64,000 nt of DNA from Flavivirga abyssicola. Its GTDB lineage: Bacteria; Bacteroidota; Bacteroidia; Flavobacteriales; Flavobacteriaceae. The notes beneath the pieces are model-generated. The model did no database searches, was not told the DNA's origin, and worked only from the letters and a program-made list of their open reading frames with translations. The stretch's first letter is position 1. Every line of letters starts with the position of its first letter. The stretch lies in the NCBI RefSeq assembly GCF_030540775.2, contig NZ_CP141266.1, forward strand, positions 151,501 to 215,500. The letters run 5' to 3'. The position numbers were made by a program, and so were the translations under genes. This document shows, in pieces, positions 44,499-54,027 of this stretch.

Positions 44499-45082
44499 AA
44501 AAATGCACTAACTTCAACAACATCTCCTACCTGCATCGAGTTAATATGAATAGTCCCTACTCGAACGCGTACCAAACGTAATGTAGGAAAGCCAACTGCC
44601 GAAGTCATTTTTCGCACCTGCCTAAACTTACCTTCATTTAAGATTATAGACACCCAAGATGTTGGGCCATGCCTATCATCCCTGATTTTTTGTGATCGCT
44701 TTGGTAAATCTGGAAGCTCATTTAATCTGGAAGCTTTACAGGGTCTGGTTTGATATTTTTTACCATCAAAACCAATTTCCACTCCTGCTTTTAATAGATT
44801 GATGGCTTCATCTGTAATAGTACCGTCTACCTGTGCATAATATTCTTTTTCTACTTTTTGACTATTAACAAAATCACTCGTTTTACCATCGGTAGTCAAT
44901 AATAATAATCCTTCTGATTTTTCATCTAATCTACCAATAGCCATGATTCCCTTAGGAAAATCATACAGTAGTCCTAAGAACTTTTTCGACTGCTGTTTTG
45001 AATCATGACTTTTAAACTGACTTAAATAACCATAGGGTTTATAAATTACAAAATGTCGATGCTCGCTTTTAGATACTTCCAT
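44495..45082 (-). CDS. 23S rRNA pseudouridine synthase (RluE/RsuA type)
   Basis: This 195-aa RsuA-family pseudouridine synthase lacks an S4 domain. The catalytic Asp53 lies in GRLDEKSEGLLLLTTDG. The C-terminal motif (NEGKFRQVRKMTSAVGFPTLRLVRVRVG) is typical of RluE-like enzymes that modify 23S rRNA. It overlaps the end of topB by 14 bp and so is translated from the same mRNA. Confidence 0.92.
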   Translation of the reverse strand: MEVSKSEHRHFVIYKPYGYLSQFKSHDSKQQSKKFLGLLYDFPKGIMAIGRLDEKSEGLLLLTTDGKTSDFVNSQKVEKEYYAQVDGTITDEAINLLKAGVEIGFDGKKYQTRPCKASRLNELPDLPKRSQKIRDDRHGPTSWVSIILNEGKFRQVRKMTSAVGFPTLRLVRVRVGTIHINSMQVGDVVEVSAFF

Positions 45083-47372
45083 TTAAAATACTGTGAACGA
45101 GTTCTTTGGTTGGTTTCTGTCCATTTATTTTAGCTCTTACGGCATCAAAAGTCATTTTAAAATCACATCCAGATTTATAATCACTGCACCCATATGCTGT
45201 ACTACCTTTAAGAACAGTTCCTTTTTTGCATTTTGGACAAGTTAATTCTTCTGGTTTTGTTTTCACCGAAGTATTTGAAGTCTTTTTGGGTTCTAATTTC
45301 AGATTAAAATGTTCATCAAAACGAAGCAAACCTTCTACTTTACCAGAATCTGTTTTAAAACCTTTTAAATTAACTGTAGACCCTTTTTGAAGCAATCTAA
45401 TATACTGTTTTTCAGAAATCTTTTTATCAGCATAACTAAAAGGGATCACAAAATGACACCCCGATTTGTACCCACTACAACCATAAGCTGTTTTTCCTTT
45501 TATAATATGTCCTTTTTTACATTTTGGACAGGTTTCTGCCGTAATACCTGCTGCTGCTTTTTTTACTGCCTTGGCTTCCCTATTTTTCACGGTTACGGCA
45601 TGAGATATATTAGCACGCTTTGTTTCGCTTCTCACCTCATATACCAGAGCATCCACCATACGTTTCATATTCTTTATAAACGCTCCTGCACTGAACGCTC
45701 CTTTTTCAATGTCTTTTAGTTGCTTTTCCCAAGACCCTGTGAGTTCTGCAGATTTTAATAAATTGTTTTGAATCGTATCTATAAGCTGCATCCCAGTAAC
45801 GGTAGGCAAGACCTGCTTTTTATTACGTTTTATATATTTTCTTTTAAAAAGGGTTTCAATAATATTGGCACGTGTTGACGGTCTTCCAATACCATTTTCT
45901 TTCATCAATTCACGCATATCTTCATCATCCACTTGCTTACCCGCTGTTTCCATAGCACGTAATAAAGAAGCCTCTGTAAATTGGTTAGGTGGTTTGGTTT
46001 CTTTTTCTAAAAACGAAGGTTCATGTGGACCTTTTTCTCCTTTAACAAACGATGGTAATAATTTATCCTTTGTCGTACTGGATGCAGTCGAAGTATCAAA
46101 AACGACACGCCACCCTTTCTCTAAAATCTCTTTTCCTGTTGTTTTAAAAGACACATCTGCAACCTTACCAATAACGGAAGTATTAGCCACCAAACAATCG
46201 TCATAAAAAACCGCTATAAAACGTTTTACTATAATATCGTAAACTTGTTGTTGGTTATATTGTAAATTAATCTGAATCCCTGTTGGGATGATAGCATGGT
46301 GATCGGTTACTTTTTTATCGTTAAAAACTTTGGCCGATTTCTTTATTTTTTTTCCTAAAAGTGGTTGTGTTAATTTTGAATAGTTTGTCAGCTTTTGAAG
46401 AATACCTGATACTTTTGGATATATATCGGTTGGTAAAAAAGTGGTATCTACTCTAGGGTACGTAACGACTTTTTGCTCATATAATTTCTGAACAATCTTT
46501 AAGGTTTCATCTGCCGAAAATCCAAACTTCGTATTACAATACACTTGCAATCCTGTTAAATCGAAAAGCTTTGGTGCATATTCCTTTCCTTTTTTCTTTG
46601 TAATAGATTCTATTTCAAAATCGCTCTCCTTTACTTTATTCGCTAGTGCCTCTCCATCTTCCTTTTTCAAAAAACGCCCCTCTTCGTAACTAAACAAAGT
46701 ATCCCGATACAAGGTCTGCAATTCCCAATATGGTTGGGGTTTAAAATTTTCAATCTCTTTAAATCGATTAACAACCATCGCCAATGTTGGAGTTTGTACC
46801 CGACCAACTGACAATACCTGCTTATAACCTCCATGTTTTACGGTGTACAATCTGGTAGCATTCATTCCAAGTAGCCAATCTCCAATAGCCCTGGAAAATC
46901 CCGCGTAATATAAATTGTCGTAATCTTCAGCAGGTTTTAAATTTTCAAACCCCTCTTTGATAGCCTCTGTCGTTAATGAAGAAATCCATAGACGTTTTAC
47001 TTCGCCTTTATAATTGGCTTCATTCATAACCCAACGCTGAATCAATTCACCTTCCTGACCTGCATCCCCACAATTTATAACCACATCTGCTTTATCAAAT
47101 AAACTTTTTACAATTTTAAATTGCTTTTGTATCCCTGAATTAGAAACAACTTTCGTTTCAAATTTTTCGGGCAACATGGGGAGGTTATTTAAATCCCAGC
47201 TTTTCCAATATGGTTTATAATCGTTGGGCTCTTTTAATGTACATAAATGTCCAAAAGTATAAGTCACTGCATAACCATTGCCTTCATAATAACCATCACG
47301 TTTAGAATTAGCTCCTAAAACAGAAGCTATTTCGCGTGCTACACTTGGTTTTTCGGCAATACAGACTTTCAC
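45069..47372 (-). CDS. topB: DNA topoisomerase III
   Basis: This 767-aa type IA topoisomerase begins with a Toprim domain (CIAEKPSVAREIA... NCGDAGQEGELI). The catalytic Tyr305 lies in VTYPRVDTTFLP. The C-terminus has two zinc-ribbon repeats (CPKCKKG...YGCSGYKSGC and CPKCKKG...YGCSDYKSGC). It starts at GTG. It decatenates DNA. In flavobacteria it is usually chromosomal, and here it is coupled to an rRNA pseudouridine synthase. Confidence 0.96.
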   Translation of the reverse strand: MKVCIAEKPSVAREIASVLGANSKRDGYYEGNGYAVTYTFGHLCTLKEPNDYKPYWKSWDLNNLPMLPEKFETKVVSNSGIQKQFKIVKSLFDKADVVINCGDAGQEGELIQRWVMNEANYKGEVKRLWISSLTTEAIKEGFENLKPAEDYDNLYYAGFSRAIGDWLLGMNATRLYTVKHGGYKQVLSVGRVQTPTLAMVVNRFKEIENFKPQPYWELQTLYRDTLFSYEEGRFLKKEDGEALANKVKESDFEIESITKKKGKEYAPKLFDLTGLQVYCNTKFGFSADETLKIVQKLYEQKVVTYPRVDTTFLPTDIYPKVSGILQKLTNYSKLTQPLLGKKIKKSAKVFNDKKVTDHHAIIPTGIQINLQYNQQQVYDIIVKRFIAVFYDDCLVANTSVIGKVADVSFKTTGKEILEKGWRVVFDTSTASSTTKDKLLPSFVKGEKGPHEPSFLEKETKPPNQFTEASLLRAMETAGKQVDDEDMRELMKENGIGRPSTRANIIETLFKRKYIKRNKKQVLPTVTGMQLIDTIQNNLLKSAELTGSWEKQLKDIEKGAFSAGAFIKNMKRMVDALVYEVRSETKRANISHAVTVKNREAKAVKKAAAGITAETCPKCKKGHIIKGKTAYGCSGYKSGCHFVIPFSYADKKISEKQYIRLLQKGSTVNLKGFKTDSGKVEGLLRFDEHFNLKLEPKKTSNTSVKTKPEELTCPKCKKGTVLKGSTAYGCSDYKSGCDFKMTFDAVRAKINGQKPTKELVHSILNGSI

Positions 47373-47561
47373 TTATCCTTTTTTTAATTTTAAATTATGA
47401 TGTGCAAAATAGGAATTTTGACCTGATTTTTGAAGTGGAGTTATCAGGAGTTATTAACGATAGGCTTGCCACCATTTTATTAAAAATAAGAAATGAAATA
47501 CAAGTTCTCAGGCAATTTTCTTAGTTTCTCTACAAATTAATGAAAAAGCGCCTTTTCAAGA

Positions 47562-47675
47562 ATGAAAAAATCTGTTTATGTCATAATACTACTATGCTTC
47601 AATATATATTATAGTTTCGGTCAGATAAGTATTGGAACAACTTTACACTTCAAAAAGTTAACCATTACATTATGA
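47562..47675 (+). pseudogene. Remnant of a secreted or outer-membrane protein gene
   Basis: An ATG at 47562 opens 37 codons that read as a typical flavobacterial signal peptide (KKSVYVIILLCFNIYYSFGQ). They continue ISIGTTLHFKKL and then hit TGA. The segment after the signal peptide resembles the first strand of a small beta barrel. No continuation is visible downstream. It looks like the 5' stub of a gene lost when the accessory island arrived, though a chance frame cannot be excluded. Confidence 0.4.
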
Positions 47676-47739
47676 ATCTAGGTTTAAAAAAAATTATACA
47701 TATGAATCAAAAAAATTTGCATTATGAACGTAGGTTCAT
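47668..47739. promoter_or_regulatory. Repeated operator-like site before the DUF134 gene
   Basis: CATTATGAATCTAGGTTT (47668-47685) and CATTATGAACGTAGGTTC (47720-47737) are direct repeats with three differences, set 52 bp apart, about five helical turns. The second contains ATGAAC-GTAG-GTTCAT (47724-47739), a perfect 6-bp inverted repeat. A half site, ATGAATCA, lies between them at 47702. It is probably the binding site of the DUF134 regulator. Confidence 0.6.
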
Positions 47740-47779
47740 TATATTTACTGAGATAAAAAAACACTTAAAAAACTAATAA

Positions 47780-48187
47780 ATGCCACGTCCAAAAAAGAAA
47801 AGAAAAGTTAATAATCCACCGAAAATGCACGGCTTTAAACCATTTGGAATTGCATTTTGTGACACAGAGCATATTATCATACAATATGACGAATATGAAA
47901 CGATTAAATTAGTTATTTATGATGATCTTCAGCAAGATGTAGCAGCAGATCGGATGGAGGTTTCACGACCTACACTTACTAGGGTTTACAATAGTGCTTT
48001 AAAAAAAATAGCGCAGGCGTTTGTGGAAGGTAAATCAATTTTAATCAAAGGTGGCAATTTCGAGTTTGAAAAAGATTGGTATAAGTGCAAAAGATGTTTT
48101 AAACTAATTGCAGGTATTGAAAATCACACAAAATGTGGTGATTGCCCTGCTTATAACATAGGTGAATTAGTAAATTTAAATGAATAA
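47780..48187 (+). CDS. DUF134-family DNA-binding protein
   Basis: This 135-aa protein has the DUF134 layout: a basic MPRPKKKRK start, a sigma-4-like HTH in the middle (YDDLQQDVAADRMEVSRPTLTRVYNSALKKIAQAF) and a C-terminal CxxC pair (CKRCF, CGDCP) that may bind a metal or Fe-S cluster. It is the first gene of the island's upstream unit. It lies 3 bp before DUF5320 and probably regulates the unit through the repeated site at 47668-47739. Confidence 0.92.
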   Translation: MPRPKKKRKVNNPPKMHGFKPFGIAFCDTEHIIIQYDEYETIKLVIYDDLQQDVAADRMEVSRPTLTRVYNSALKKIAQAFVEGKSILIKGGNFEFEKDWYKCKRCFKLIAGIENHTKCGDCPAYNIGELVNLNE

Positions 48188-48190
48188 GTT

Positions 48191-48370
48191 ATGCCAAATT
48201 TAGATCATAAGGGTCCTGAAAATTTAGGCCCAAAAACCGGAATGAAATTGGGGAAATGTAGAAAGACAAAATCGGATAACATTGAATACCCTGAACACAG
48301 ACCTTTTGGAAAAAGGAGACGAAAAAAATTAAATTACGACAAGATAACACGATTTAATTTCAAAAGATGA
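48191..48370 (+). CDS. DUF5320-family small protein (59 aa)
   Basis: This short gene encodes 59 aa with the DUF5320 pattern. It has a Gly/Pro-rich start (MPNLDHKGPENLGPKTGMKLGKC) and a very basic C-terminus (GKRRRKKLNYDK). The stop overlaps the next start as ATGA (48367-48370), so it is translationally coupled to the NifX-like gene. In anaerobes such proteins are typically next to DUF134 and dinitrogenase iron-molybdenum cofactor proteins, as here. Confidence 0.85.
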   Translation: MPNLDHKGPENLGPKTGMKLGKCRKTKSDNIEYPEHRPFGKRRRKKLNYDKITRFNFKR

Positions 48371-48756
48371 AAAAAATAGCTGTACCAATAACAAGAAATA
48401 ATCAGATAGAAGAACATTTTGGGCATTGTGAGTTTTATGAAATTTATACTTTTTCTAATACTAACGAAGTTTTAGATGTACAATTATTAAAGTCAGAGCA
48501 AGGTTGTGTATGTAAATCAAATTTTATCAGTCTTTTAGAAAATGAAGGTGTAACATTGATGCTTTCTGATGGCATTGGCAATAACGCAATTAATAAATTA
48601 AATAATGCTGGTATTGAAATAATACGAGGTTGTTCAGGTAGTTCTGCAGAGGTGATCTTACAATTTATTGAAGGAGAAATTTCTGATAGTGATATAAGTT
48701 GTTTAAAGCATGCTCAACATCATGGAGATGGACATAACCATGTATGTGATCATTAG
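48367..48756 (+). CDS. NifX/NifB-type iron-molybdenum cofactor-binding protein
   Basis: This 129-aa protein is of the dinitrogenase Fe-Mo cofactor biosynthesis family. It has MKKIAVPITRNNQIEEHFGHCEFYEIY at the start and IGNNAINKLNNAGIEIIRGCSG in the middle. The C-terminus is rich in His and Cys (CLKHAQHHGDGHNHVCDH), suited to metal binding. No nitrogenase genes are near, so the role is probably metal-cluster handling of another kind. It forms an operon with DUF134 and DUF5320. Confidence 0.9.
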   Translation: MKKIAVPITRNNQIEEHFGHCEFYEIYTFSNTNEVLDVQLLKSEQGCVCKSNFISLLENEGVTLMLSDGIGNNAINKLNNAGIEIIRGCSGSSAEVILQFIEGEISDSDISCLKHAQHHGDGHNHVCDH

Positions 48757-48974
48757 CCTAAACTCACAGAAAATATGAGTGTTTCTTTTAACTACATTTT
48801 TAAGTTATTTTATTTGAATTCATTCATGAAATCAGAGGCAACATTAACAAAAATTCTATTAGTCTATAATGCTTGTAAACTAAAATATACTTACAAAACA
48901 ACGTTTACTCCTTCTAATAAAATTAAATACTTAGTACAGTTTTGAGTTAAATACGAGTAAATAAAACTTAGATA

Positions 48975-49610
48975 ATGAATGACAGAGGCACAAATATTTT
49001 GCAAGGAGAAAGGGTTAAACTTCCAACCCAATATGGTCACTTTGAGCTTATTCCATTTCAAGAGAAATTAAATGGACTTGAACATATGGCACTGATTAAA
49101 GGAAACTTGACATCAAATGATACCATTCTAACACGAATTCACTCTGCTTGTGCAACTGGAGATTTATTTGGCTCATTAAAATGCGATTGCGGAGAACAAT
49201 TAATTCAAGCTATGAAAATAATTGAGAACAACGGAAATGGAATAATCGTGTATTTGCAACAAGAAGGCAGGGGAATTGGTCTTATGAATAAAATGAAGGC
49301 TTATAAACTGCAAGAACATGGCATGGACACAATAGAAGCTAACTTACACTTAGGGTTTGCCCCAGATGAGAGGGAATATCAAATAGGAGCCGAAATTCTT
49401 ATTTCTCTTGGTGTAAAGAAAGTGAAATTACTGACTAATAACCCTGAGAAAATTCTTGGATTGGAACAAAACGGAATTCAAGTTGATGAACGTATTCCTC
49501 TAATAGTACAATCAAACCCATTTAACATAGAGTACTTAGACACAAAAAGAAATCGTATGGGTCACCAGTTAAATGAAGAAAAAATGAAAATTCAATATTA
49601 TGATAACTGA
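48975..49610 (+). CDS. ribA: GTP cyclohydrolase II
   Basis: It converts GTP to 2,5-diamino-6-ribosylamino-4-pyrimidinone 5'-phosphate. The zinc cysteines Cys59, Cys70 and Cys72 (CATGDLFGSLKCDC) keep the spacing of E. coli RibA. The catalytic segment YLQQEGRGIGL is intact. It is a stand-alone cyclohydrolase without the RibB domain and is not next to rib genes. It heads a five-gene run whose other members are not riboflavin enzymes, so it may supply a different pathway. I see no FMN riboswitch upstream. Confidence 0.95.
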   Translation: MNDRGTNILQGERVKLPTQYGHFELIPFQEKLNGLEHMALIKGNLTSNDTILTRIHSACATGDLFGSLKCDCGEQLIQAMKIIENNGNGIIVYLQQEGRGIGLMNKMKAYKLQEHGMDTIEANLHLGFAPDEREYQIGAEILISLGVKKVKLLTNNPEKILGLEQNGIQVDERIPLIVQSNPFNIEYLDTKRNRMGHQLNEEKMKIQYYDN

Positions 49611-50019
49611 CATATTTGAATTAAGACCCCGATATGGAGAAGTAGACCAAATGGGATATGTGTATCATGCCAATTACGTTACATATTGCCACCAGTCTCG
49701 TACTGAGTTATTACGCAAATTAGGGATAAACGATAGTAAACTTGAAAAGAACCATATCATGTTACCAGTAATTTCGTTTGAAATTATTTATAAAAAGCCT
49801 GCTCATTACGATGAACTTATTACAATACAAACAACTATTAAGGAATTACCAAAGGTTCGCTTTAATTTCGAATTTGAAATAAAAAATGAACAAAACACGC
49901 TTTTAAGCAAAGCAAAATCAACTGTTGTTTTTGTAGATAGTCAGTCACGTTTGCCAATTAACATACCTTATTTTGTTGAGAATGCACTTAAACCTCATTT
50001 TAAAAGTGTTTGTGTATGA
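49600..50019 (+). CDS. Acyl-CoA thioesterase (hotdog, YbgC-like)
   Basis: This 139-aa hotdog-fold thioesterase of the 4-hydroxybenzoyl-CoA/YbgC type has the active-site motif VDQMGYVYHANYVTYCHQSRTELLRKLG, with Asp16 and YHANY. The closing strand is LLSKAKSTVVFVD. It overlaps ribA by 11 bp and the next gene by 4 bp, so the three are co-translated. It would hydrolyse an acyl- or aryl-thioester; its substrate in this cluster is unknown. Confidence 0.9.
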   Translation: MITDIFELRPRYGEVDQMGYVYHANYVTYCHQSRTELLRKLGINDSKLEKNHIMLPVISFEIIYKKPAHYDELITIQTTIKELPKVRFNFEFEIKNEQNTLLSKAKSTVVFVDSQSRLPINIPYFVENALKPHFKSVCV

Positions 50020-50798
50020 AATTAATTGTACTTACTGAAAATTGCGCAGGATCCGGTTTTTTTGCAGAACATGGACTATCTTATATAATTGAATATAAAG
50101 ATGATAAGATTTTGTTCGACACAGGACACTCAGATATCTTTATTAAAAACGCCAAAATACTTGGTATTGATATCCAAAAAGAAATTAACACGGTTATTCT
50201 TAGCCATGGCCATTGGGATCATGGAAATGGGCTACAATATATTGATAATAAAACTTTAATTACCCATCCAGGTGTTTTTATTAAACGGTTCAGAAAGAAT
50301 GATAATTCAAATATTGGACTAAAACTAAGCAAAAACGATTTTGAGCAAAAGTTTAAGTTGATTCTCAAAAAAGAACCTTATTATATTTCAGACAATATTG
50401 TTTTTCTGGGACAAATACCCAGGCTAAATGATTATGAGTCAAAAACAACTCTTTTTTTAGATGAATTAGGCAAGCCTGATTTTGTAATTGATGATTCGGC
50501 AATTGCTGTTATTCAGAATAACGAGCTCATAGTAATTACTGGATGCTCTCACTCGGGCGTTTGTAACATTATTGAATATGCCCGCAAAGTAACAGGTATC
50601 AACAAAATAAAAACTGTAATTGGTGGTTTTCATTTAAAGCACAAAAACCGCCAAACTAAGGATACTGTAAATTTTCTGAAAAAATACGACATAGCGAAAA
50701 TTTATCCATCGCATTGTACCGAATTCCCTGCTCTTGTTGCTTTTTATGAACATTTTAATATCGAACAATTAAAAACAGGAATGATTTTAAATTTCTAA
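50016..50798 (+). CDS. COG1237-type metallo-beta-lactamase-fold protein
   Basis: This roughly 260-aa protein has the metal motif SHGHWDHGNGL, further ligand regions (TGCSHSGVCNIIEYA, IGGFHLKH) and the C-terminal PSHCTEFPAL. These are the marks of the COG1237 group related to archaeal dihydropterin-ribofuranosylaminobenzene phosphate synthase. The ATG at 50016 overlaps the thioesterase stop (ATGA). The family is common in anaerobes and archaea. Next to a GTP cyclohydrolase it suggests pterin- or pyrimidine-type chemistry; this is inference. Confidence 0.88.
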   Translation: MKLIVLTENCAGSGFFAEHGLSYIIEYKDDKILFDTGHSDIFIKNAKILGIDIQKEINTVILSHGHWDHGNGLQYIDNKTLITHPGVFIKRFRKNDNSNIGLKLSKNDFEQKFKLILKKEPYYISDNIVFLGQIPRLNDYESKTTLFLDELGKPDFVIDDSAIAVIQNNELIVITGCSHSGVCNIIEYARKVTGINKIKTVIGGFHLKHKNRQTKDTVNFLKKYDIAKIYPSHCTEFPALVAFYEHFNIEQLKTGMILNF

Positions 50799-50799
50799 A

Positions 50800-51015
50800 A
50801 TGCTATCTAATCAAATAATCACAAACTCCATTAGAATAATTCACACACTTTTTGATGATCTTAAAAGCATACCTATTAACAATAAAAACTTTAAAGAACA
50901 TGGCGGAAAAAGATATACAAGTCATGAAATAAATCATGTTTTTAATGAAACAGAATTGGTAGGTTTGCATGTTTGTATAAAATCTAATGTTAAAAGAAGA
51001 ACAAAGTTTATTTAG
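50800..51015 (+). CDS. Small protein of unknown function (71 aa)
   Basis: It starts 1 bp after the stop of the MBL gene, and the frame is in a tight run of co-directional genes. The protein is polar with a His/Glu-containing centre (HGGKRYTSHEINHVFNETE) and a basic tail (SNVKRRTKF). It has no signal peptide, and I recognise no family. It could be a small accessory subunit or carrier-like protein. It might also be the decayed start of a larger gene. Confidence 0.55.
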   Translation: MLSNQIITNSIRIIHTLFDDLKSIPINNKNFKEHGGKRYTSHEINHVFNETELVGLHVCIKSNVKRRTKFI

Positions 51016-51060
51016 CTTTTATAAAAGAGGAAGCTCTGATTAATTATAATTAAAATATTT

Positions 51061-53136
51061 ATGAAAACAAGCAATATACTTATTGAAAATCAATACAATA
51101 GAACCCGTTTATTTGAAAAAGAAAACCTGAATTATCTGGTTAGAGTTTTAAAAAGATTTAATACTGCACCTAAGATAAACAGCATAAATATTACCACTTC
51201 TGACACTGAGCCCGATGTATTTAAAATTGTTCCTGAAAAAGCAATTAAAATTGGTTCACTATTTTTAGAAAAACCTGTTTTAGCATTAATCTATTTAAGA
51301 TATGGTATTGAATGGCAACTTTGGCATAAAGCTTTAGGTAAAGAAAAATCCAATACTCTTTTATGCGATCTGGCTGCTCTTAAAGTTACTCAAATATTTT
51401 ATGATTTATTACCCAAAAAAGATAAAGAAAAATTAAAAAATCTTGATTATTTTTTAATTGATCTGATTAAAAAAAATGAAGATTTAAACACAGAATCTTT
51501 ATTAAAATATAAAGAACTACAATCTTTTCATGGATTAAACAATTCAAACAACATATTTAAAGAATCCTGGAAACCAATTCTTGAAAACCTGGCAAAACCA
51601 ACAGAATATTTATTAATGGCTGGTGGTGATCTTAGACTGAATATCGACGAATTTGAATTGTTGAATAAATATGGTTGCCGACCATTTCCAAGACCAGAAG
51701 CATTTACTTTTGCCTCATCAACAGCGACTAGTGTATCAAATTTTGCTTTTGATAAAACAGACAAAATTAGATCGATATTAATTCAGAACAGCTTAAAAAA
51801 AGGTTTTAAAAACACAACTATCGAATTTTCAGAATCGTTAAAAAACAATCTTAGAAAAATCTTTAACATAAATGATGGATGTCAAATAATTTTTTCTCCA
51901 TCGGGTACGGATTCAGCTCTTCAAATAGCAGCTATTAATCAAATTATTTCCGATAAAGAAATTACACATATTTTGGTAGCTTCTGATGAAACTGGTAGTG
52001 GTATTCCTGCAGCATTAAAAGGGCAACATTTTGAAAATACTACTGCTTTGAATTATCCGATTAAAAAAGGGGATAAAATTGAAGGGTTTAGAGATGTTGA
52101 CTTGATCAAAATTCCTCTAAGGGATGAAAATGGCGAATTAAAATCATCGTTTCAATTAGATACAGAGGTTTTTAATGCCATTTCAGAAACTAATGAATTA
52201 GGGAGACATATTGTATTGCATGCCATGGATCAATCAAAATTAGGATATCAATCACCTAGTGAAGAAATGATGCAAAAATTGGATACACTTAACAATTTAT
52301 CAATACAAATTATTGTAGACGGATCACAACTTAGATTAGATCCAAAAGACATACAAAATTATTTGAATAAAGAATATATGGTTACTATAACCGGAAGTAA
52401 ATACTTTACAGGCCCTCCCTATTCAGGCGCATTAATTGTGCCTGAAAATGTTAGTAAATCAATTAATTCTGTAAAAAACACTTTACCAAAAGGTTTAACC
52501 AATTATTACAATCATTCAGATTGGCCAACATCGTGGTTCTGTTCTAAAGATTTATCCGATGGATATAATTATGGCTCATACATGCGCTGGAATGCTGCTA
52601 TAACTGAAATGGACAGGTATTACAAAACACCTGTTTTATATAGAAATTTAGGAATTGAGATGTTTTGCAATTTTGTTGAAGACTCTATTAAAGATTCCAC
52701 TTTTTTAGAACCACTTTTTGGAAATGAAACAAAAATTAATACTTATAACAGTGAAGAATTCGGACTTAGAAATATTCGAACCATTTTCCCTTTTTTTATC
52801 CTCAAAAACAATAATGTATTACCTCTTAATGATGTAAAGAAACTCTATACATTATTGAATTCAGATATATCTGATCAATTCGAAGGATCTTCTTTAGAAA
52901 TCATTAGACTTGCTGCTCAAAAATGTCATATAGGACAAGCAGTTAATGTAAAATATGGTAATGATTTTCAAAGTGCTGTGTTAAGAATTAGTTTGGGCGC
53001 AAGGGTTATTTCCGAAAGTTGGGTAAACAGAGATATTAGCATCTATTTTAGAAATATAGAAACACAAATGAATCAGATCACTGTAATTATGAAAAAAATA
53101 GAATTGATCCTCAGTAATTCTGAATTGTTGAATTAA
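51061..53136 (+). CDS. PLP-fold enzyme with unrecognised N-terminal domain (691 aa)
   Basis: Residues ~205-690 form an aminotransferase class V-like PLP fold. A phosphate-binding loop reads FSPSGTDSALQ (about 280-290). Asp420 in VDGSQLR would contact the pyridine nitrogen. Lys447 in TGSKYFTGPPYSG is the probable Schiff-base lysine; the 27-residue Asp-Lys spacing is as in cysteine desulfurases. The first ~200 residues are helical (FLEKPVLALIYLRYGIEWQLWHKALG) and match nothing I know. Cysteine desulfurases are ~400 aa, so this is an unusual fusion. It is the last gene of the island. Confidence 0.75.
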   Translation: MKTSNILIENQYNRTRLFEKENLNYLVRVLKRFNTAPKINSINITTSDTEPDVFKIVPEKAIKIGSLFLEKPVLALIYLRYGIEWQLWHKALGKEKSNTLLCDLAALKVTQIFYDLLPKKDKEKLKNLDYFLIDLIKKNEDLNTESLLKYKELQSFHGLNNSNNIFKESWKPILENLAKPTEYLLMAGGDLRLNIDEFELLNKYGCRPFPRPEAFTFASSTATSVSNFAFDKTDKIRSILIQNSLKKGFKNTTIEFSESLKNNLRKIFNINDGCQIIFSPSGTDSALQIAAINQIISDKEITHILVASDETGSGIPAALKGQHFENTTALNYPIKKGDKIEGFRDVDLIKIPLRDENGELKSSFQLDTEVFNAISETNELGRHIVLHAMDQSKLGYQSPSEEMMQKLDTLNNLSIQIIVDGSQLRLDPKDIQNYLNKEYMVTITGSKYFTGPPYSGALIVPENVSKSINSVKNTLPKGLTNYYNHSDWPTSWFCSKDLSDGYNYGSYMRWNAAITEMDRYYKTPVLYRNLGIEMFCNFVEDSIKDSTFLEPLFGNETKINTYNSEEFGLRNIRTIFPFFILKNNNVLPLNDVKKLYTLLNSDISDQFEGSSLEIIRLAAQKCHIGQAVNVKYGNDFQSAVLRISLGARVISESWVNRDISIYFRNIETQMNQITVIMKKIELILSNSELLN

Positions 53137-53229
53137 ATAATGAGATTCAATATCTATGCACACTGGAAATACCTTGCATTTTTTCAATTATTTCTGCATA
53201 AATTTCTATGGTATGTTTCTTCAGAAGGG

Positions 53230-54027
53230 TTACCACTCACGCTTTTTATTAAGCTCTTCGAGGGCTTCTAATTCTTTTTGAGGAATCACTTTTAAGAAAG
53301 AAGGATGCTGTTCGATAGCATATTCAATTTTTTTAACAATCTCGTCTGTAGATTCATTATCGTAATCTATTTCCAAAGGCGCTTTAATTTCAAAAGATTG
53401 TAAAATGTTTTTCTTTTTAATACGCAATCCTTTTTTATCGAAAGAACGTCTAAACCCATCAATAACTATAGGTATTACAATAGGTTTATATCGTTTAATA
53501 ATATGGGCTGTTCCTTTTCTAATAGGTTTAAATGGGGTTGTTGTCCCCTGTGGAAAGGTTATAACCCAACCATCATCTAATGCTTTACCAATGTTTGAAA
53601 TATCACTCATCTTAACCTGTCTGTTCACATCTTGTCCTTCTGATCTCCAAGTACGTTCAATACTAATAGAGCCTACATAAGCTAATATTTTTGGCAGCAG
53701 TCCTGCTTTCATGGTTTCTTTGGCAGCGACATAATAAATATTCAACTTAGGATTCCACAAGTATCCAACATTTTTAATAGAGTCTTCTCGGCCACTTAAA
53801 CTAGCATTAAAGACGTGAAACATGGATACCACATCTGCAAAGTATGTTTGATGATTCGAAATAAATAATACATTCGTATCAGGTAATGTTTTTATAATAT
53901 CAGAACCTTCTATTTGTAATTCATTAAACCCTCTAAAGCGCCTATGAGTCATTGCACCCAGAATTCTTATGAGCCATTTTTTTACAATTAGTATATGTCC
54001 GAATGGATTTCTTTTAAACAATCCCAT
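53230..54027 (-). CDS. 1-acyl-sn-glycerol-3-phosphate acyltransferase-like protein
   Basis: This 265-aa PlsC-family phospholipid acyltransferase has motif I as SNHQTYFADV, with five residues between His and Asp rather than the usual four. Motif III is FPQGTTTPFKPIRKGT, with Gln in place of the usual Glu of FPEGT. It has a hydrophobic segment near the N-terminus. It probably works at the inner membrane in phospholipid or ornithine-lipid synthesis. It is on the same strand as the Nudix gene. Confidence 0.85.
   Translation of the reverse strand: MGLFKRNPFGHILIVKKWLIRILGAMTHRRFRGFNELQIEGSDIIKTLPDTNVLFISNHQTYFADVVSMFHVFNASLSGREDSIKNVGYLWNPKLNIYYVAAKETMKAGLLPKILAYVGSISIERTWRSEGQDVNRQVKMSDISNIGKALDDGWVITFPQGTTTPFKPIRKGTAHIIKRYKPIVIPIVIDGFRRSFDKKGLRIKKKNILQSFEIKAPLEIDYDNESTDEIVKKIEYAIEQHPSFLKVIPQKELEALEELNKKREW

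Follow-up and report, generated by a model that had tools for sequence, protein, structure and literature searches.

An accessory DUF134 gene cluster of Flavobacteriaceae and a possible link of its PLP protein to cysteate synthesis

Here we describe a set of eight genes that is accessory in Flavobacteriaceae and lies in a 64,000-nucleotide stretch of the Flavivirga abyssicola genome, referred to as the window. We tentatively propose, at somewhat below an even chance, that the locus is a DUF134-regulated cluster whose lasting product, a 691-residue PLP protein, is a fold type I enzyme that forms L-cysteate by beta-replacement for sulfonolipids. We infer the reaction and substrates: a serine derivative and sulfite would probably be the starting materials of the L-cysteate, which supplies the sulfur of membrane lipids in gliding bacteria. 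The enzyme would serve sulfonolipid (capnine) synthesis alongside or in place of the fold type II cysteate synthase CapA, and the acyltransferase SulA (CapB) would use the cysteate. The other cluster genes would be dispensable helpers of an older module, eroding while the PLP gene stays. A broader version is more doubtful: an undescribed, non-homologous fold type I cysteate synthase under DUF134 that has repeatedly made CapA dispensable, with short relatives and a group IV decarboxylase leading to taurine in marine Bacteroidota.

If true, the proposal would give a function to a protein family hitherto without one. The parts of a review drawn on here describe two unlike cysteate synthases in Bacteroidota and sulfonolipids that are needed for gliding and act as signals (PMC10191378); the paper it cites for the two synthases (PMC9304779) contains neither 'CapA' nor 'archaea' in its main text. 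If Bacteroidota already have two cysteate routes, the addition of a third, structurally unrelated one would clearly exemplify non-homologous replacement.

Layout and conservation of the cluster

The open reading frames and strands agree with a first-pass annotation of the window, which had placed eight plus-strand genes between a minus-strand topB and a minus-strand acyltransferase:

45069-47372, minus strand, topB, left flank of the cluster
47562-47779, region without a cluster gene, with an operator-like site
47780-48187, plus strand, DUF134 protein, predicted regulator with two CxxC pairs at the C-terminus (DUF134 4.2e-24)
48191-48370, plus strand, DUF5320 small protein (DUF5320 2.9e-6)
48367-48756, plus strand, NifX-like protein (Nitro_FeMo-Co 1.3e-16; MrpORP model 7.8e-14 over the C-terminal part)
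48975-49610, plus strand, RibA, GTP cyclohydrolase II as a stand-alone domain (GTP_cyclohydro2 5.5e-67)
49600-50019, plus strand, YbgC/FadM-type 4HBT thioesterase (TIGR00051 3.4e-30)
50016-50798, plus strand, MBL-fold hydrolase (Lactamase_B 5e-11)
50800-51015, plus strand, 71-residue ORF, a decayed TrmO gene (DNA match to locus L031)
51061-53136, plus strand, 691-residue PLP protein (structure model, alignment motifs by eye)
53230-54027, minus strand, acyltransferase, right flank of the cluster

Domain matches confirm the labels DUF134, DUF5320, NifX-like, RibA, thioesterase and MBL. Within the annotated island (47562-53136), 47562-47779 holds an operator-like site and no cluster gene. The MBL gene is taken from the ATG at 50016 (the ORF tool gives a TTG at 50010); the nearest solved relatives of its product are 2p4z and 3h3e, and the COG1237 label is that of the annotation. 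A riboswitch ahead of ribA was considered and dropped, no Rfam match being found within 46900-53500.

The 71-residue ORF, previously listed as a protein of its own, is by its sequence a truncated TrmO gene. The match to intact TrmO at other loci covers its first 26 codons, beyond which nothing is recognisable, and 98 nt spanning the MBL end and the TrmO start are 80% identical in DNA to L031 (7e-21). The ORF has no Pfam or NCBIfam match, TrmO_N included; TrmO of L032 has 164 residues and matches TIGR00104 (1.8e-38) and TrmO_N.

Both halves form one conserved unit, DUF134-DUF5320-NifX-RibA-thioesterase-MBL-TrmO-PLP, near-whole or eroded in other Flavobacteriaceae. All eight genes can be traced in the same order in L031, where the MBL gene has a stop, and in L032, and large subsets stand in six further loci (L070, L072, L073, L076, L079 and L100), so the annotators' joining of the two halves holds. 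The frequent separation that they had named as counter-evidence is found in part: 47 of 81 PLP loci have no cluster gene within 4.5 kb (the contig ends sooner in five), DUF134 is the sole cluster gene beside PLP in 9 of 81, and L143 carries DUF134-RibA-thioesterase-MBL without the PLP gene. DUF134 is kept in 22 PLP loci versus at most 12 for the genes between DUF134 and PLP (RibA 12, thioesterase 12, MBL 4). Presence was scored from 85% coverage by tblastn pieces upward, which admits the L031 MBL with its stop and the L040 TrmO (a 93-residue ORF). Since PLP itself served to locate the loci (a single PLP-keyed pattern scan gave 106 confirmed places, of which L029-L108 are the best 80), the constancy of PLP is ascertained; the outlasting of the intermediate genes by DUF134 is not.

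The PLP gene was matched in 6 of 40 relatives (four Flavivirga, one 46% relative and one 25% relative) and is absent from 8 of 12 Flavivirga; DUF134 is present in 9 of 299 family genomes. Measured against the window, the cluster genes have unremarkable codon usage and GC (z within +-1.9); the exception is NifX, with a low GC3 (z -2.9) and a codon score that is more typical than the mean (z +3.2). The PLP tree is largely genus-wise, with genus labels needing 25 changes where 21 is the minimum possible; it was built by a quick method without a mixture model and leaves out L023 (same as L030), L028 (short), L096 (frame split) and L210 (no motif-bearing ORF by script). Recent foreign DNA was rejected on the ordinary codon and GC statistics, which together with the tree give no sign of recent import from anaerobes; the suggested origin as an island acquired from anaerobes is not supported. 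Movement within Flavobacteriaceae is likely, since the neighbours of the cluster differ between genera, Formosa rows sit inside Maribacter rows and 8 of 12 Flavivirga lack the gene. In line with the annotation, which knew of no described pathway for this gene set, literature searches pairing DUF134 with DUF5320, NifX or Mrp listed none.

The PLP protein and the sulfonolipid genes

The 691-residue protein has no Pfam (E 0.001) or NCBIfam match, the aminotransferase class V Pfam included, and a PDB sequence search with its profile gave none. Its AlphaFold2 model and alignment point to a fold type I, class V-like enzyme. The 50 Foldseek rows listed, which we take to be fold type I enzymes throughout, are distant and reach a best E of 5.9e-11 at 9-16% identity and a TM by query length of at most 0.40, and the nearest are decarboxylases and desulfurases. 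D420, Q423 and TGSK are invariant in the family, placing a lysine (K447, the candidate Schiff-base residue) and an Asp-x-x-Gln as in class V, with roles assigned by eye. In overall architecture and in the arrangement of the PLP site (VDGSQ, TGSK, by eye) the protein resembles NifS/SufS, the EgtE C-S lyase, C-DES and group II decarboxylases, from which the low identity above and the lack of a Pfam or NCBIfam match set it apart. With fold type I matches throughout and no Pfam match, it does not join the fold type II CBS-like family.

The proposed enzyme would resemble CapA with SulA (CapB) in being PLP-dependent, in its product cysteate and in its partner SulA. It differs from CapA in its modelled fold type I, class V-like architecture with an extra N-terminal part of ~175 residues, whereas the fold-II gene beside sulA is CBS-like. 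For a second cysteate route in Bacteroidota, the reported precedent is the archaeal-type synthase said to serve Alistipes/Odoribacter (PMC10191378).

Among the sulA loci read, the usual order is YbaB-POP-fold-II gene-SulA (L171, L172, L173, L175, L201, L202, L203 and others), and from this adjacency and consecutive accessions the fold-II gene is probably capA. In L107, POP, SulA and PLP follow one another on one contig with no fold-II gene between POP and SulA, and none was found in that MAG. Its SulA aligns over the full length with solved cysteate-C-fatty acyltransferase (28eh, 3e-215; 7u7h, 9e-176), and residue 281, a position specific to SulA, is a lysine (hand-counted on the alignment). 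L105 and L108 carry the 3' part of SulA at a contig end, directly before PLP; the three related MAGs make up one lineage. L092 and L095 lack the fold-II gene between PLP and POP, the order in sister species being PLP-fold-II gene-POP. PLP and the fold-II gene meet tail-to-tail rather than sharing an operon in 24 named loci, almost all from Flavobacterium, with sulA elsewhere. In four PLP-negative Flavobacterium, sulA does not lie within 1.5 kb of the fold-II gene. The genome of the window itself keeps sulA and an apparently intact fold-II gene.

The fold-II gene is missing, truncated or without its TSGNTG loop in 11 of 86 PLP-positive genomes; among 158 family genomes with SulA but no PLP the number is at most 4 (Fisher p = 0.003, without kinship correction), and in a further PLP-negative comparison it is 0 of 20. 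On the PLP tree, nine rows with such a loss call for five changes or more. All 11 genomes, five of them MAGs (G708, G709, G710, G744, G780), have sulA: whole in nine, split between two contigs in G710 and as a 3' piece in G708. G711, G713, G743, G744, G708, G709 and G710 offer a 53-56% paralogue or nothing, the G780 gene lacks its first 119 residues, those of G775 and G433 are degenerate, and in G559 no fold-II gene was found among three candidates scored. PLP-positive strains in which no fold-II gene was found include Flavobacterium kayseriense and Flavobacterium sp. ALD4. The 86 comprise 79 named genomes (57 by genome search, 22 by the gene seen in a PLP locus, with L073 left out) plus G000, G397, G443, G537, G433, G559 and G566, the last counted from its match count alone. 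The 158 are 169 genomes minus 8 PLP-positive and 3 without a match, with three candidates scored per genome among the matches listed; two matches are read as SulA plus the fold-II gene on the basis of the E 1e-130 limit. Lone single matches occurred in G496, G510, G533 and G570, and the two inspected are broken (G510 in two frames, G496 with a 24-residue gap). An apparent break in Polaribacter Hel1_85 (L086/G752) was set aside: the stops lie beyond the aligned part and the copy looks intact.

The fold-II gene is retained in 75 of the 86 PLP-positive genomes, where sulfonolipids therefore do not require PLP. Outside Flavobacteriaceae, 7 of 10 SulA-positive genomes without long-form PLP (40-genome sample) have no fold-II match of at least 57%, so sulA without a fold-II gene does not require PLP; one of the seven, G425, has a 54% fold-II match ~1 kb from sulA. 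Replacement of SulA by PLP in cold Flavobacterium was rejected, since sulA lies elsewhere in the genome: it was found in 48 of 50 PLP-positive genomes searched (E 1e-100), the two misses being small MAGs.

Relatives, neighbours and other readings

Another reading, rather unlikely, gives the PLP protein a role in building an unusual amino acid or amine that goes into a surface polysaccharide or small molecule, with the sulfonolipid link a coincidence of gene neighbourhood. The short relatives, 23-29% identical, suggest it: a diaminopimelate-decarboxylase-like gene follows in all 10 loci read widely among 13 fetched (two by family models, eight by eye). Sulfotransferase-like and sugar genes also stand near short-form loci (by eye), and L027 and L028 are set in runs of glycan and ATP-grasp genes. 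However, the long forms, as far as read (with their neighbours annotated in part), mostly lack such neighbours, and the pattern of fold-II loss is left unexplained. This reading and the cysteate proposal would be reconciled if the product were cysteate and the partner decarboxylated it to taurine. In favour of the cysteate proposal, the PLP gene of L027, a 46% relative, shares a gene run with a PAPS reductase, which makes sulfite, and lies three genes upstream of it; this is the one such case among loci from L022 on, and the reductase was rejected as a general neighbour.

An improbable reading is that of a cysteine-desulfurase-like sulfur donor for the NifX/Di-Nase Fe-S module, in a cut-down, DUF134-regulated system like ORP. 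NifS, SufS and C-S lyases are among the best Foldseek matches, and the NifX-like protein has HFGHCE and CDH, motifs named for the MrpORP Di-Nase in the portion of the source used (PMC6345978), without the first Cys of CXHFGHCE. A MinD-type ATPase carrying ferredoxin motifs comes after DUF134-NifX in L141, resembling Orp3/Orp4 as described in that portion. These are likenesses to the ORP/MrpORP set of Desulfovibrio, from which the window cluster differs in having no Mrp ATPase; that portion also makes no mention of DUF134. Against a sulfur donor stand the absence of any invariant or nearly invariant cysteine in the 51-row PLP alignment, the 47 of 81 loci with PLP and no module gene, and L140, L141 and L143, where the module is present and no PLP gene was found in the fetched stretches.

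Still less probable is that the whole cluster serves a single route to a GTP-derived compound of pterin or flavin type, with RibA, MBL, thioesterase and PLP acting together. Gene order suggests it, as does the joint presence of RibA, thioesterase and MBL without PLP in L143, and COG1237 MBL proteins have been linked to pterin chemistry; against it stand the sparse retention of RibA, thioesterase and MBL in the 81 PLP loci, the decayed TrmO of the window and the MBL stop in L031.

The DUF134 gene and its putative operator

The cysteate proposal places the PLP gene under DUF134, a name that a whole-word literature search met in two papers, once in each. The protein presumably contains an HTH and may sense metal or redox state through its CxxC pairs. 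Three elements precede its gene:

47673-47686, TGAATCTAGGTTTA, degenerate second operator copy
47725-47738, plus strand, TGAACGTAGGTTCA, putative operator (TGAAC-N4-GTTCA)
47740-47747, plus strand, TATATTTA, candidate Bacteroidota -7 element, one base past the operator

TGAACGTAGGTTCA has one match in the window versus 0.05 expected. Perfect TGAAC-N4-GTTCA half-sites lie at most ~340 bases before DUF134 in 24 of 25 DUF134-bearing PLP loci, a count read by eye that combines two scans and in which L101 and L139 are one sequence; DUF134 is thus probably autoregulated through the site, which we infer it binds. The conserved site offers a testable target for DUF134. TAnnTTT[GA] follows one base after the operator in 20 of 21 sites with a DUF134 start found nearby by script; we take TAnnTTTG to be the Bacteroidota -7 element. 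The site was not found in L141 or L143; it also precedes DUF134 in L140 and L142, and L061 and L144 carry it with one mismatch.

The cluster around the PLP enzyme

The locus is a real, conserved and eroding accessory cluster built around a family of PLP enzymes that has no Pfam or NCBIfam match. Eight open reading frames lie where the first-pass annotation had placed them, all on the plus strand and flanked by minus-strand topB and acyltransferase genes. Pfam and NCBIfam confirm DUF134, DUF5320, a NifX-type domain, GTP cyclohydrolase II (RibA), a YbgC/FadM thioesterase (TE) and a metallo-beta-lactamase fold (MBL), with zero matches for the 71-aa and 691-aa proteins, the latter being the PLP enzyme. 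Neighbouring frames overlap at DUF5320/NifX, RibA/TE and TE/MBL; NifX and RibA lie 218 bases apart, and the 71-aa frame is a TrmO remnant.

Named genomes were scanned with the PLP alignment and the best 80 of 106 confirmed places were kept; going by titles, all are Flavobacteriaceae or Flavobacteriia/Flavobacteriales except one MAG called Lentimicrobium, whose PLP sits next to that of a Flavobacterium MAG in the tree. The cluster genes of these loci follow the order DUF134-DUF5320-NifX-RibA-TE-MBL-TrmO-PLP, with one swap (L043), so that the two separate units originally proposed are better described as one cluster. With the window included (81 loci), DUF134 is covered to at least 85 % in 22 loci, RibA and TE in 12 each, NifX in 11, DUF5320 in 8, TrmO in 5 and MBL in 4. 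DUF134 is the sole cluster gene near PLP in 9 loci, and 47 lack any other gene of the cluster out to 4.5 kb from PLP, including five whose contig stops short of that distance (L037, L041, L095, L105, L108). MBL is interrupted by a stop in L031 and fragmentary in L029, L084 and L093, and TrmO survives in pieces in six loci. At the window's own site, Flavivirga rizhaonensis (L022/L029) retains PLP and remnants; in G537, from a different genus, PLP lies between topB and the acyltransferase with extra genes inserted. Eight of 12 Flavivirga lack the PLP gene.

Related runs also occur with no PLP nearby: DUF134-NifX-RibA-MauE/DoxX-TE-MBL-CoA-disulfide-reductase-like (L143:7212-12608, the last protein with a rhodanese-like end by eye), DUF134-NifX-MinD/ferredoxin ATPase-TE-MBL (L141) and DUF134-MBL-NifX (L140). 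By eye, a cupin-like protein follows DUF134 in L142 and L144; L142 also carries NifX and a stand-alone threonyl-tRNA-synthetase editing-like protein.

Cluster codon usage and GC are unexceptional, and genus labels on the PLP tree require 25 changes (minimum 21; shuffled labels 45), giving no sign of a recent import from anaerobes. Neighbours differ between genera, which leads us to argue for movement of the cluster within Flavobacteriaceae.

The PLP protein and its short relatives

The AlphaFold2 model of PLP, built from a 51-row alignment (pLDDT 84, pTM 0.85), resembles fold-type I enzymes, namely decarboxylases, NifS/SufS and the EgtE-type C-S lyase. K447 (in TGSKYFTGPP), D420 and Q423 are invariant across the 51 rows.

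Short PLP relatives are present in other Bacteroidota families. A diaminopimelate-decarboxylase-like gene, a call checked with models in two cases, directly follows the short relative in all 10 widely read loci (of 13), and from this arrangement a taurine or amine pathway is possible. No such gene follows the 523-aa form in L028, where a 612-aa protein without a Pfam match (L028:4931-6766) lies nearby in an ATP-grasp/glycan gene run. Sulfotransferase-like genes were seen by eye close to the short relative in several of L109-L118.

Association with sulfonolipid synthesis

In L107, a Flavobacteriia MAG, the protein encoded before PLP matches the solved structures of cysteate-C-fatty acyltransferase (28eh, 3e-215) and SulA (7u7h, 9e-176) and carries the SulA-specific lysine described in PMC9304779; the end of the same sulA gene directly precedes PLP in L105 and L108. 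The typical order in the Flavobacteriaceae loci read is YbaB-POP-fold-II enzyme-SulA, with sulA at a separate location in Flavobacterium. The fold-II gene is probably capA, because the accessions of CapA and CapB of Capnocytophaga directly follow each other (PMC12927429) and CapA is reported to form cysteate from phosphoserine (PMC10191378).

PLP might be an alternative cysteate-forming enzyme, beside or instead of the fold-II enzyme. The fold-II gene is missing or damaged in 11 of 86 PLP-positive genomes, all 11 of which have sulA (fragmentary in G708 and G710). L107 has none between POP and SulA on a single contig, and the three sulA-PLP MAGs (L105, L107, L108) contain at best a 54-56 % paralogue. 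The gene is absent from G711, G713, G743 and G744, and a search of G559 did not turn it up; the G780 copy is missing its first 119 residues, and the copies in G775 and G433 no longer have the TSGNTG loop. Among SulA-positive PLP-negative genomes of the family, by comparison, all of a first set of 20 keep it, as do at least 154 of a larger set of 158 (Fisher p 0.003 for loss in PLP-positive versus PLP-negative genomes, kinship ignored). On the PLP tree, the nine fold-II-lost rows need at least five changes. Open, degenerate fold-II copies without the TSGNTG loop lie between POP and sulA at L194:3972-4883 and L204:9442-10467.

Evidence against this role comes from outside the family, where 7 of 10 SulA-positive genomes without long-form PLP have no fold-II match of at least 57 %, so that either cysteate has other sources or the gene has diverged. 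SulA-level matches with neither a close fold-II synthase nor long-form PLP were seen in the order-level relatives G419, G422, G424, G429, G430 and G431. Since sulA is common (35 of the 40 relatives have it, at an identity of at least 58 %), PLP would be an addition and not the usual source of cysteate. The sulfonolipid link, drawn from genomic context, is the best lead for PLP, at somewhat better than a one-in-three chance.

The palindrome upstream of DUF134

47725-47738, putative operator TGAAC-N4-GTTCA upstream of DUF134 (one match in the window against 0.05 expected)

Perfect half-sites precede DUF134 in 24 of 25 DUF134-bearing PLP loci (L101 and L139 being a single sequence), the exception, L061, having a mismatch. 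TAnnTTT[GA] follows one base past the site in 20 of the 21 sites whose DUF134 start was located by script. The palindrome is also present in L140 and L142 and absent from L141 and L143. From this pattern we infer that DUF134 represses its own expression through TGAAC-N4-GTTCA. The palindrome may instead be a LexA-type site, which in Gram-positives reads GAACNNNNGTTC. At L035:7765, with no DUF134 nearby, and at L104:5984, it is embedded in a longer palindrome, ATAA...TTAT.
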